From Streptomyces durmitorensis (GTDB lineage: Bacteria; Actinomycetota; Actinomycetes; Streptomycetales; Streptomycetaceae), in contig NZ_CP097289.1 of NCBI RefSeq assembly GCF_023498005.1, positions 9,424,001 to 9,488,000 of the forward strand: a stretch of 64,000 nt of DNA, read 5' to 3'. Numbering within the stretch: position 1 is the first letter of the stretch; each line of letters begins with the position of its first letter. Under the pieces are notes generated by a model. It was not told the DNA's origin. It did not search any database and saw only the letters and a list, made by a program, of their open reading frames with translations. Positions 17,672 to 45,890 of the stretch are shown in pieces. A program made the translations under genes and the position numbers.

Positions 17672-17687
17672 CTCAACACGTTCAACA
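17672..17687 (+). promoter_or_regulatory. TTCAACA direct-repeat site 1 (deacetylase/leuA)
   Basis: CTCAACA-CG-TTCAACA: two heptamers with 9-bp pitch, in the intergenic space between the divergent polysaccharide deacetylase and leuA. It is 141 bp before the leuA start and in the same orientation as leuA. It is one of eight related sites in the window and is proposed as a shared operator. Confidence 0.6.
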
Positions 17688-17828
17688 GCCTCGCCGGTGA
17701 ACAGCACGGATCCTCCGGCGGCCGGGGGCACTCGATGAGGCATGACACATACGGACACGGCAAGGTCATGCCCGGTCGAGACGAAGCAGGCCGGGCGAGT
17801 GGCTGACAACGACGGGGGACCAAGGATC

Positions 17829-19604
17829 ATGAGCCGCATGAATCAGGCCACCGGCGCGGTGAGTGAACCTCAGAAACCCTCGGGGATGCCGATCCACAAG
17901 TACGGGCAGTACGAGCAGGTCGACATCCCCGACCGCACGTGGCCCGACAACCGGATCACGGTCGCTCCCCGCTGGCTCTCCACGGACCTGCGTGACGGCA
18001 ACCAGGCGCTGATCGACCCGATGTCCCCGGCGCGCAAGCGCGAGATGTTCGACCTGCTGGTCCGCATGGGCTACAAGGAGATCGAGGTCGGCTTCCCCTC
18101 CTCGGGCCAGACCGACTTCGACTTCGTACGGTCGATCATCGAGGACGGCGCGATCCCGGACGACGTCACGATCTCCGTCCTGACGCAGGCCCGCGAAGAG
18201 CTGATCGCCCGCACCGTCGAGTCGCTGGTCGGCGCCAAGCGCGCCACCGTCCACCTGTACAACGCGACCGCGCCCGTCTGGCGCGAGGTCGTCTTCCGTG
18301 GCTCGAAGGACGCGGTCAAGCAGATCGCCGTCGACGGCACGCGCCTGGTCATGGAGTACGCCGAGAAACTGCTGGGCCCCGAGACGGTCTTCGGCTACCA
18401 GTACAGCCCCGAGATCTTCACGGACACCGAGCTGGACTTCGCCCTGGAGGTCTGCGAGGCCGTCTGTGACGTGTGGCAGCCCGAAGAGGGCCGCGAGATC
18501 ATCCTCAACCTGCCCGCCACGGTGGAGCGTTCGACGCCCTCCACCCACGCGGACCGCTTCGAGTGGATGTCCCGCAACCTGACCCGCCGCGAGCACGTCT
18601 GCCTGTCCGTCCACCCGCACAACGACCGCGGCACCGCCGTCGCCGCCGCCGAACTGGCCATCATGGCCGGCGCCGACCGCATCGAGGGCTGCCTGTTCGG
18701 TCAGGGCGAGCGCACCGGCAACGTCGACCTGGTCACGCTGGGCATGAACCTCTTCTCGCAGGGCGTGGACCCGCAGATCGACTTCTCCGACATCGACGAG
18801 ATCCGCCGCACCGCCGAGTACTGCAACCAGATGGAGGTCCACCCGCGCCACCCGTACGCGGGCGACCTCGTCTACACCGCCTTCTCCGGCTCCCACCAGG
18901 ACGCCATCAAGAAGGGCTTCGAGGCGATGGGCGTCCGGGCCGAGCAGCAGGGCAAGACGGTCGACGACATCGAGTGGGCCGTCCCGTACCTGCCCATCGA
19001 CCCCAAGGACGTCGGCCGTTCGTACGAGGCCGTGATCCGCGTCAACTCGCAGTCCGGCAAGGGCGGCATCGCCTACGTCCTGCAGAACGACCACAAGCTG
19101 GACCTGCCGCGCCGCATGCAGGTCGAGTTCTCCAAGATCATCCAGACGAAGACCGACAGCGAGGGCGGCGAGGTCACGCCGAAGGCGATCTGGTCGGCCT
19201 TCCAGGACGAGTACCTGCCGAATCCGGACGGCCAGGAGGACGCCCGGTGGGGCCGTTTCCAGCTGCGGTCCGGGCAGACCGCGACCGACAGGGACGGCCT
19301 GGACACGCTGACGGTCGACGCGGTCGTGGACGGCATCGAGACTGTCCTGACCGGCACCGGCAACGGCCCGATCTCGGCCTTCTTCGAAGCGCTGGCCGTG
19401 ACCGGTGTCGATGCGAGGCTGCTGGACTACCAGGAGCACACGATGAGCGAAGGCGCGCGGGCGCAGGCGGCCTCGTACATCGAGTGCTCCATCGACGGCC
19501 AGGTGCTGTGGGGCGTGGGTATCGACGCGAATACGACACGCGCCTCGCTGAAAGCGGTCGTCTCAGCGGTCAACCGGGGCGCACGTCAAGGCGTTTCCGA
19601 CTGA
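17829..19604 (+). CDS. leuA: 2-isopropylmalate synthase
   Basis: A 591-residue enzyme; ATG 17829 follows AAGGA. It catalyses acetyl-CoA + 2-oxoisovalerate to 2-isopropylmalate, the committed step of leucine synthesis. The catalytic barrel shows [43 protein letters not shown] (metal-binding HxH) and [16 protein letters not shown]. The C-terminal ~130 residues are the LeuA allosteric domain that senses leucine. Length and sequence are those of the normal actinobacterial enzyme. No Leu-rich leader peptide is visible upstream; instead a TTCAACA direct repeat lies there. The 3' end overlaps the convergent FAD monooxygenase gene by 19 bp. Confidence 0.96.
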
Positions 19605-43781: not shown

Positions 43782-44930
43782 ATGACGAACATGGAGATCG
43801 CACTCGCCGGCGGGGCCAGCTTTCTTGGACCCCGGCTTGCCTCGGAGCTCCTGAGCAGGGGACACCGGCTCACGCTGCTCGCCACCCGCGACCCCGCTGT
43901 GGTGCGTAGGCGCCTTCTCGGCAGGCTGGCGCTTCTCGGCTATCCGCCGCAGTCCGTTCTGGACATGAGTGACCAGCTGGATGCGGTGTACGTCGATCCG
44001 CAAGCACCTCACCTCGGGATGGGGCGCGGAGCCTACGAAGCGCTCGCGGATCGGTTCGACGTGGTGTGGCACTGCCCGGCCAGCCCGGACTTCCATCAGG
44101 GGTGCGACTTCGCGGGTGGAGTTCCTGCGAAGGGGGCTCACGCGCTGCTTCCGCTCGCGGCGTCGGGGGAGCGCCCCACTGTGTTCCATCAGGTGAGCAC
44201 CGTGTTCGCACACGGAGCACAGCCCCCGGGCACGGTCCGGGAATCCGGAGCCGCACGCACGTCGGGGAACTGCCGCAATCGGCACGAGAGGGCCCACGCC
44301 GACGCCGATCGGTATGTACACAGTTACGCGGCCGACACCGGCGCTCGTGCCGTAGTGCATCGAACGGGCCTGCTCGTCACCGACATGGCCGACCAGCCTG
44401 AACTCCCTCGCCACGGGCTCGCTCAGATCGCTGCGGTGGCCGGTCGGCTGCTCTCGACGGCGGAAGGGGGCGAGCGCCTCTCCCTCTCGCTGGGCGTGCC
44501 GGGCGACCCCGAGGCGCGGTTGAACCTTCTGCCGGTCGTGGCCGCCGCGCGAACCATGGCGCAGGTGACGGAGCGGGCGCACGAACCGGGGCCGCAGCTG
44601 ATGCACGTCGTGCATCCCCGGGATACGCCGATCAGCCGCATCACCGCGGCGTTCGAGCACCTCTTCCCCCTGCGGTTGTTGCTCCGGCCGACCGGGAGTG
44701 CTCATCTCCCTGTGGACGTGCGGGGCATTCCGCAAGGATTGGACGCGGTCCTGCCCTACCTGAGGCAACGCCTGTCCTTCGACACCGGTGCCCTCGACTC
44801 ACTCGGAGTGCGTGTACGGGCCCCTCGGGTCACCACTGAGTACTTGGTGCGCGGCATGAAGGGGGCCGCCATGCAATCCGCGGTGCCTGAGGGCGGGCCG
44901 CATGTGGGTGTGCTTTCCGCCTCTGTATGA
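43782..44930 (+). CDS. Thioester-reductase-like SDR protein with altered catalytic residues
   Basis: A 382-residue protein resembling the NAD-binding-4 (male-sterility/thioester reductase) group. The Rossmann start is ALAGGASFLGPRLA, followed by VFHQVSTVFAHG and VVHRTGLLV. Where active members have Tyr and Lys in an NxYxxSK motif, this protein reads NRHERAH, so both catalytic residues appear replaced by His. It may therefore bind NAD(P) without reducing thioesters, or use different chemistry. It heads a plus-strand unit with SGNH hydrolase, ketosynthase, diiron desaturase and a second SGNH hydrolase. Confidence 0.8.
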   Translation: MTNMEIALAGGASFLGPRLASELLSRGHRLTLLATRDPAVVRRRLLGRLALLGYPPQSVLDMSDQLDAVYVDPQAPHLGMGRGAYEALADRFDVVWHCPASPDFHQGCDFAGGVPAKGAHALLPLAASGERPTVFHQVSTVFAHGAQPPGTVRESGAARTSGNCRNRHERAHADADRYVHSYAADTGARAVVHRTGLLVTDMADQPELPRHGLAQIAAVAGRLLSTAEGGERLSLSLGVPGDPEARLNLLPVVAAARTMAQVTERAHEPGPQLMHVVHPRDTPISRITAAFEHLFPLRLLLRPTGSAHLPVDVRGIPQGLDAVLPYLRQRLSFDTGALDSLGVRVRAPRVTTEYLVRGMKGAAMQSAVPEGGPHVGVLSASV

Positions 44931-44975
44931 CATCGGCATTCTGGACAGCTGTCTCGCCGGCCTGAGGAGGAACAC

Positions 44976-45890
44976 ATGCACAAGTCGTCCACCCCAGCAG
45001 CCCAGTTGGCCCCGATCGCGAGAACTCGCAGGCTCATGGCTCGTTGCTACTCGGCCTGTCTGGGGCGAGCCCAGTACCGGAGCGTGAATCTCCCCGAGTT
45101 CACGGTCTGCGGCCGGTATGGCGAGGGGCGGGGAACACCCGTCAGCCTCATGCTGATCGGCGACTCGACCAGCTTGGGTTGTGGCGCCGACCGACCTGAC
45201 CAGGTCCCCGCCGCGCTGTTGGCCGCCGCCCTCGCCGACGAACTCGGCAGACCGGTCGACGTACGGGTCGAGGCGGAGCGCGGAGCCACCGCCACCTCCA
45301 TGCAGAGCCAAGCGGAAACGGCCGTCTGGGCTGAACCGGACGTCGTGGTGGTCATGGCGTGTGCCAACGACGTGCTGCTCCCGGTTCGACTCCACCGCCG
45401 TGCCCGGCGCCTCGCTTGTCAGATCCGCTTGATGCGGACCGAGCATTGCTCCGTTGTGGTGGCGGCCTGCCCCGACCTGGGGTGGGGGAACGGACTGCAC
45501 CGCCCGGTTCGCTCCCTGGTGCGCCGAAGGGCCCGACGCCTTGCCCGACTGCAGACAACGGTCGCGCTCGCCGAAGGCGCCCGGGTCGCTTCGCTCTCGG
45601 AACCGCTGTGTCACGAGGATCCGTCCGCGGCGCATGCGGCAGACGGATTCCACCCGTCGCCGGATGCCTACGCAAGGGCCGCGGCCCGCTTGCTGCCCGC
45701 CGTCCTGGCCGCGGCGGGGGGCACAGCACCGGAACGGGAGAGCCCGGGGCCGGGGGAACTGAACTTTCCGGCCTCCGACACAGCCGAGCACGCGAACACG
45801 CTCAACGCCCACTTCGCCCCTTTGGGAGACGGCCGGGTCGCTCTGAGGCTCCGACGATCGATGAGGATGCTGCCTGATGCTCAGATCTGA
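44976..45890 (+). CDS. SGNH/GDSL-family hydrolase A
   Basis: A 304-residue protein; ATG 44976 follows AGGAGG at good spacing. SGNH blocks: MLIGDSTSLGCG (Ser), ACANDVLLP (Asn) and DGFHPSPDAY (Asp/His). No secretion signal is evident, so an intracellular acyl-ester or thioester substrate is likely. It is a paralogue of the hydrolase at 48165-49073 (shared RRLARLQTTVALAEGARV-type block). Its end overlaps the ketosynthase start by 14 nt. Confidence 0.86.
   Translation: MHKSSTPAAQLAPIARTRRLMARCYSACLGRAQYRSVNLPEFTVCGRYGEGRGTPVSLMLIGDSTSLGCGADRPDQVPAALLAAALADELGRPVDVRVEAERGATATSMQSQAETAVWAEPDVVVVMACANDVLLPVRLHRRARRLACQIRLMRTEHCSVVVAACPDLGWGNGLHRPVRSLVRRRARRLARLQTTVALAEGARVASLSEPLCHEDPSAAHAADGFHPSPDAYARAAARLLPAVLAAAGGTAPERESPGPGELNFPASDTAEHANTLNAHFAPLGDGRVALRLRRSMRMLPDAQI
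45792..45807 (+). promoter_or_regulatory. Degenerate TTCAACA-like site 8 (before ketosynthase)
   Basis: GCGAACA-CG-CTCAACG, inside the 3' part of SGNH hydrolase A and 69 bp before the ketosynthase start. It has four mismatches to the consensus and lies in coding DNA, so it may be chance. Confidence 0.3.

Follow-up and report, generated by a model that had tools for sequence, protein, structure and literature searches.

Tandem heptamers at a 9-bp pitch as candidate operators of NsdA-family regulators in a Streptomyces durmitorensis gene cluster

A stretch of 64,000 nucleotides from Streptomyces durmitorensis (NZ_CP097289.1, positions 9,424,001 to 9,488,000; here called the window) carries a biosynthetic gene cluster with two regulators of the NsdA family, NsdA1 and NsdA2, and a short repeated DNA sequence between its genes. 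The repeat consists of two heptamers with a spacer of 2, TTCAACA-NN-YTCAACA, giving a 9-bp pitch, and 26 kb of the window holds seven intergenic copies at ≤1 mismatch. The copies are probably docking sites for NsdA-type proteins, because they lie before the transcription units of the cluster and because several other Streptomyces have like sites next to NsdA-family genes. The preferred explanation, with a probability of about 0.75, is that they are operators bound by NsdA1, NsdA2 or both, and that they control the cluster together with both regulators.

An earlier note on this DNA, made from the sequence alone, had listed the seven copies, and all are present at ≤1 mismatch (Table 1). As the note had also held, none overlaps a gene model, in a region (17616-45890) where the intergenic share is 12.8%; the site at 40617 is intergenic only with a start of the gene at 39993 near 40475, since the longest open frame (to 40730) covers it. 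The copy given as 24306-24321 exists but had been described incompletely, as it represents the first two units of a three-unit site at 24297-24321. The site at 17672 is followed at the same pitch by a weaker third unit, CTCGCCG. A proposed eighth copy at 45792-45807 (GCGAACACGCTCAACG) had to be abandoned, with four mismatches to the consensus and a position inside the GDSL gene 44976-45890. Start codons lie 81-207 bp from the sites (56 bp for the deacetylase), and the direction of the site relative to the gene varies; the sites at 29561 and 33910 face away from their genes.

The spacing is strict. With spacers of 0-14 allowed at ≤1 mismatch, the window has eight matches at spacer 2 and none at each of the 14 others, which bears out the 9-bp pitch. 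All eight lie within 17-46 kb, two of them being overlapping pairs of the three-unit site. The reversed pattern gives two matches over all 15 spacers, none at spacer 2. At ≤3 mismatches the window has 14 matches; shuffled sequences average 1.64, and 0 of 100 shuffles reach 14. The flanking regions had been said to lack the site, and the window outside the interval indeed has no match at ≤2 mismatches.

The sites are also rare in the rest of the genome. A pattern search of the 9.86 Mb with mismatches allowed was used in place of a weight matrix. The exact sequence TTCAACANNYTCAACA has three matches, two in the window and the third at C1:8842425. At ≤1 mismatch there are 17 matches, seven of them in the 26-kb interval, against 0.026 expected from the density elsewhere. 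Nine of the 17 are in coding sequence by our own gene calls (two of these overlap each other), and the eight intergenic matches are the seven window sites and C1:8842425. Equally good sites scattered through the genome had been named as the finding that would speak against a local regulon; at this threshold just one other intergenic site exists, and it stands beside a regulator of the same family, between a third NsdA-family gene (NsdA3) and a KAS III-ACP-KS operon. At ≤2 mismatches the genome has 117 matches, placed only in part, versus 64 for the reversed pattern.

Copying could cluster like strings, and the three-unit sites suggest that local duplication is possible. It is nevertheless highly improbable that the sites are left over from a repeat that spread, or that they cluster by chance in spacer DNA: the spacer and genome tests already contradict this reading, the seven flanks show no resemblance to one another by eye, and the association with NsdA-family genes extends across genomes.

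The note had called both regulators NsdA-like, and each scores 309 bits against NF053720, for which the cut-off is 75 bits. The equivalog models for NsdA and NsdB (NF050130, cut-off 830; NF050135, cut-off 700) give 70-82 bits, and judged by these scores NsdA1 and NsdA2 are members of the family that are neither NsdA nor NsdB. The two are 56% identical to each other, and relatives of NsdA2 that are 71-72% identical occur in S. kanamyceticus and two others. In structure models of NsdA2 (mean pLDDT 79.7 and 89.5), the predicted N-terminal helix-turn-helix (HTH) superposes on domains of the CI, P22 c2 and Cro type and the predicted C-terminal part on TPR proteins. Foldseek by itself gave E values of 0.13 or worse for the HTH, and a sequence search of the PDB returned no useful match. 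RRNPP regulators (NprR, PlcR and Rap) count among the closest known systems.

Similar sites are found beside NsdA-family genes in other genomes, whether the loci are chosen by site or by protein. Among 392 genomes of the genus, the exact sequence TTCAACANNTTCAACA has 26 matches in 25 genomes, and the reversed control has eight. Six of the 25 matches outside the window (L001, L105, L106, L108, L172 and L174) have an NsdA-family gene within 1.5 kb, where 0.17 would be expected on the basis of the 15 NsdA-family genes over the cut-off in the S. durmitorensis genome only; the family match at L174 is weak (146 bits). Choosing by protein gave 46 distinct NsdA-family genes at 43 loci, and nine genes at eight loci have a site (≤2 mismatches) within 400 bp. 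Shuffles gave a mean of 0.12 genes with a site and a maximum of 1 over 60 shuffles, in a comparison that counted the eight loci holding these nine genes. Spacer 2 yields 10 matches near the protein-chosen genes, and the other spacers from 0 to 15 yield 0 to 3.

The eight loci form three ortholog groups (L042/L187/L189, L050/L159 and L122/L123) and one weak case (L055); an extra match at L189, in the spacer common to two genes, is not the conserved one. In the orthologous spacers of L061/L177, L050/L159 and L122/L123, the site is a conserved block amid diverged or partly diverged DNA. In three genomes (G175, G311 and G349), the spacer of two divergent NsdA genes contains TTCAACAC(G/T)TTCACGC (three mismatches), and TTCACC(C/T)C(T/C)TTCAACA (two mismatches) stands about 20 bp behind one NsdA gene, upstream of an operon that includes a ketosynthase gene. 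In S. uncialis DCA2648 (L144), a relative of NsdA1 (70% over 388 aa) adjoins homologues of the benzoylformate-decarboxylase-type enzyme (BFD, 78%) and the ValDH-like dehydrogenase (71%) of the window. Upstream of this pair is a three-unit site resembling window site 1, CGCAACA-CG-TTCAACA-CG-CTCGCCG, about 435 bp before the start in a gene model that is probably too short.

Altogether the candidate site is known from nine kinds of locus outside the window, of which two are weaker (L175, with the regulator gene 2.2 kb off, and L178, with a weak family match). Loci L061, L177, L114, L116, L175 and L178 are known through the motif and L062 (= L047) by protein and then motif, and L050(L074)/L159, L042(L069)/L187(L195)/L189(L196), L122/L123 and L144 came from protein searches. 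A contig scan with A1 gave two loci. Further genes adjoining sites encode a methyltransferase (L062), PucR-type regulators (L114 and L116) and a polyprenyl synthetase (L074). Locus L175 (9916-9955, genome G329) has two sites in opposite orientation, 8 bp apart, one with a single mismatch, and an NsdA-family gene about 2.2 kb away. An any-letter repeat of pitch 9 before all NsdA-family genes, suggested at first by a few of them, was considered and rejected, as among 56 genes TTCAA pairs at this pitch occur upstream in one and downstream in four, the four including motif-chosen loci. ValDH was likewise dropped as a marker of related clusters, being matched by 390 of 392 genomes.

The claim that the sites are operators of the NsdA-like paralogues is thus supported by like sites beside NsdA-family genes elsewhere, but it has to be set against the fact that the heptamer type also occurs with WhiJ-type regulators. 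A WhiJ-type (XRE-DUF5753) protein encoded elsewhere could bind the window sites, with the NsdA genes merely its targets. As its paper describes it, WhiJ9 of S. venezuelae, which like the window regulators has an XRE-type HTH, binds three direct repeats with the consensus CGXXCTCAAC (PMC10294661). The string is compatible with a 9-bp period as far as the consensus goes, the spacing itself being in the paper's figure. WhiJ9 is thus an example of an XRE-type protein able to recognise such repeats, which makes a WhiJ-type protein the main rival. The YTCAAC core is common to this consensus and the window sites, whereas the preceding letters differ, CGXX for WhiJ9 (PMC10294661) and A-NN in the window. 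The NsdA HTHs also resemble Pfam HTH_31, although weakly and below the cut-off.

Six of the 25 matches outside the window (L104, L107, L109, L110, L162 and L163) stand before orthologous copies of a single WhiJ-type XRE gene; the exact TTCAACANNTTCAACA, present as TTCAACA-AA-TTCAACA (a CC spacer in L110), lies 8-24 bp ahead of the start. The assignment as WhiJ-type comes from Pfam HTH_31 and DUF5753 on one of the six and from length, sequence start and upstream DNA for the others. Some of these loci carry further TTCAAC nearby, and judging from the upstream sequence the six genes are likely autoregulated. Against a role for such a protein in the window, the 17 DUF5753 genes of the S. durmitorensis genome are all outside the window, and none has YTCAAC direct repeats (≥11/12 letters, pitch 6-21) in about 400 bp around or before the likely start. 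Where a site neighbours an NsdA-family gene, no WhiJ-type gene was noticed either, although no systematic search of those loci was made. Binding by a WhiJ-type protein in place of NsdA1 or NsdA2 seems unlikely on balance.

Several observations weigh against operators read by NsdA1 and NsdA2. The same type of heptamer serves WhiJ-type proteins (PMC10294661), and 12 of the 25 matches outside the window are tied to neither an NsdA-type nor a WhiJ-type gene. At L161 the NsdA-family gene is only found at 2.2 kb, and among the 15 family members of the S. durmitorensis genome, three have a site (≤2 mismatches) no farther than 1.5 kb away. No site lies within 400 bp of 37 of the 46 protein-chosen genes, and orthologous loci are not independent. 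The S. uncialis NsdA gene is one of the 37; its site is found roughly 3 kb away, in front of the ValDH-BFD target pair. In the L033-L040 ortholog group, whose recognition helix is almost identical, no site occurs within 400 bp, and about 60 kb of G355, with a relative 55% identical to NsdA1, has 0 intergenic matches at ≤2 mismatches. A tree places the labelled genes mainly in one clade (97/94), with some outside. Because most NsdA-family genes examined are without a site, the site code is not family-wide. Finally, three of eight window pairs, and 10 of 17 sites listed from elsewhere, contain the partly symmetric core AAC-NN-GTT, and given this core a symmetric dimer may bind. An inverted-repeat reading was set aside on arm agreement, for which a direct repeat is the better single description: five to seven of seven letters agree between heptamers (four of seven in three sites elsewhere), and for inverted six-letter arms the agreement is 3-4/6 in the window and 3-5/6 elsewhere.

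A dedicated sigma factor or a SARP-like activator might instead use the repeats as promoter elements. SARPs are described as reading heptamer direct repeats (PMC10972967), and the window sites are upstream of operons. Their orientation is not fixed, however, the unit is 9 bp versus 10-11 for SARPs, and no SARP was seen among the cluster proteins scanned. The remark that the pitch is unlike the 11-bp SARP spacing stands, with all window matches at spacer 2 and 0 at spacers 3-14. Given the distance to the start codons and the occurrence of either orientation relative to the genes, the sites are unlikely to be promoter hexamers, and promoter elements of this kind appear quite improbable.

If NsdA1 and NsdA2 do bind the sites, each TTCAACA-type heptamer would be read by the lambda-repressor-like HTH of one or both proteins. 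Two or three protomers would lie next to each other, one for every 9 bp, with the TPR domain joining protomers, sensing a ligand or partner, or doing both. Bound protein would set the leuA, acyl-CoA dehydrogenase, HAD, glutaminase, nonribosomal peptide synthetase (NRPS), ValDH-BFD and SDR-KS units together, and it would act likewise on the promoters of both regulators (autoregulation). The direction would be mainly repression with autoregulation, which is slightly preferred to activation given that the S. rimosus protein NsdAsr is described as a negative regulator (PMC12243394). A broader suggestion, possible rather than probable, is that two large Streptomyces regulator groups have an operator code in common, namely YTCAACA-type heptamers in tandem with a 9-bp pitch: a portion of the NsdA family, which are TPR proteins, and certain XRE proteins of the WhiJ type. 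If that were true, the string could link a silent gene cluster to the regulator that belongs to it, and paralogues may cross-talk through it.

Table 1. Heptamer sites and genes of the cluster, in window positions
Feature	Position	Strand	Sequence or score	Context
Site 1	17672-17687	+	CTCAACACGTTCAACA = CTCAACA-CG-TTCAACA	between leuA (150 bp) and polysaccharide deacetylase (56 bp)
Site 2	23462-23477	-	TTCAACACGTTCACCA = TTCAACA-CG-TTCACCA	207 bp before acyl-CoA dehydrogenase operon
Site 3	24297-24321	-	CGCAACA-GG-TTCAACA-CC-CTCAACT	three units, 9-bp pitch; divergent spacer, HAD phosphatase at 81 bp, NsdA1 at about 150 bp
Site 4	29561-29576	+	TTCAACAGTCTCAACA = TTCAACA-GT-CTCAACA, 0 mismatches	168 bp before glutaminase (- strand gene)
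Site 5	33910-33925	+	TTCAACACGCTCGACA = TTCAACA-CG-CTCGACA	145 bp before NsdA2 (- strand gene)
Site 6	40617-40632	+	TTCAACGTGCTCAACA = TTCAACG-TG-CTCAACA	between divergent operons: ValDH-BFD at 161 bp, NRPS-side at about 140 bp (start uncertain)
Site 7	43653-43668	+	TTCAACAATTTCAACA = TTCAACA-AT-TTCAACA, 0 mismatches	113 bp before SDR-GDSL-KS-desaturase operon
leuA, 2-isopropylmalate synthase	17838-19604	+		
Likely operon	19586-23254	-		acyl-CoA dehydrogenase, ThiS-like protein, unknown 296-aa protein, FAD monooxygenase
296-aa protein	20887-21777			in acyl-CoA dehydrogenase operon
ThiS-like protein	21780-22049			
Acyl-CoA dehydrogenase	22046-23254	-		
HAD-type phosphatase	23513-24215	-		
NsdA1, NsdA-family regulator	24470-25816	+	NF053720 309.0 bits	
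Glutaminase	27716-29392	-		with EF-hand-like and ankyrin parts
NsdA2, NsdA-family regulator	32394-33764	-	NF053720 309.3 bits	
Likely operon	34206-40475	-		small unknown protein, SagB-type dehydrogenase, class-III aminotransferase, NRPS, thioesterase
ValDH-like dehydrogenase and BFD-type TPP enzyme	40794-43586	+	NF005485 over cut-off	
ValDH-like gene	40794-41945			
Likely operon	43782-49073	+		thioester-reductase-like SDR, GDSL, ketosynthase, fatty acid desaturase (FA_desaturase_2), GDSL

Two genes of the cluster are extra copies. The leuA gene is 93% identical to a copy at 6.31 Mb (52% for a third copy), and the ValDH-like gene is one of two ValDH matches in the genome, with 58-64% identity to the matches listed in other genomes; both fit pathway-dedicated precursor genes. 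The NRPS has condensation-like, A and PCP parts, with a condensation match below the Pfam cut-off. A cyclisation-type motif was read by eye in the condensation-like domain. Taken together, the predicted NRPS, SagB-type dehydrogenase, BFD-type enzyme and ThiS-like protein possibly point to a thiazole- or oxazole-type product. For the 296-aa protein neither Pfam (at E 0.001) nor NCBIfam gave a match, and at E 1 Pfam yields only a hit at chance level. The glutaminase is arranged as EF-hand-like domain, glutaminase and ankyrin repeats, a plan that we take to be that of the animal kidney-type glutaminase, and its neighbours encode an ion-channel protein and a bestrophin-like protein.

No NsdA-family operator or report of this site was recognised in the open-licence PMC literature, at the level of titles and abstracts and with long listings covered in part. 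The analysis offers a concrete candidate binding sequence for part of the NsdA family, where that of NsdAsr is described as unidentified in the 2025 study of that protein (PMC12243394). If the candidate is right, NsdA-family regulators could be matched to targets by sequence, and the window cluster would gain a handle in the form of two regulators and seven operators. The candidate is testable with one set of short oligonucleotides.

Among known systems, the window regulators are closest in kind to the NsdA family itself, NsdA and NsdB of Streptomyces coelicolor and NsdAsr, as their NF053720 scores indicate. NsdAsr of S. rimosus M527 is reported to bind DNA in chromatin immunoprecipitation with quantitative PCR (ChIP-qPCR) and in electrophoretic mobility shift assays (EMSA; PMC12243394). 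Unlike NsdA and NsdB, the window regulators sit inside a gene cluster. SARP operators (ActII-ORF4, PimR and others) share with the window the reading of heptamer direct repeats by cluster-situated regulators, but their spacers are given as 4-15 nt, with a classical unit of 11 bp and a secondary PimR site of 10 bp (PMC10972967). The operator of iosA-whiJ9 in the BldB network shares direct repeats with CTCAAC; by the paper's account it lies 113 bp before the iosA start point, iosA is activated and WhiJ9 seems to repress itself (PMC10294661). By its description WhiJ9 is seemingly no TPR protein, and it is paired with a DUF397 (BldB-like) protein (PMC10294661), of which none was found among the window cluster proteins scanned. 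The MerR-like protein BldC has another fold and reads AATTXXXX(C) units, compared by eye with the YTCAACANN units of the window. Its described arrangement is nevertheless the one proposed here, with one protomer per 9-bp direct repeat, placed head to tail, on a variable number of repeats (PMC5859096).

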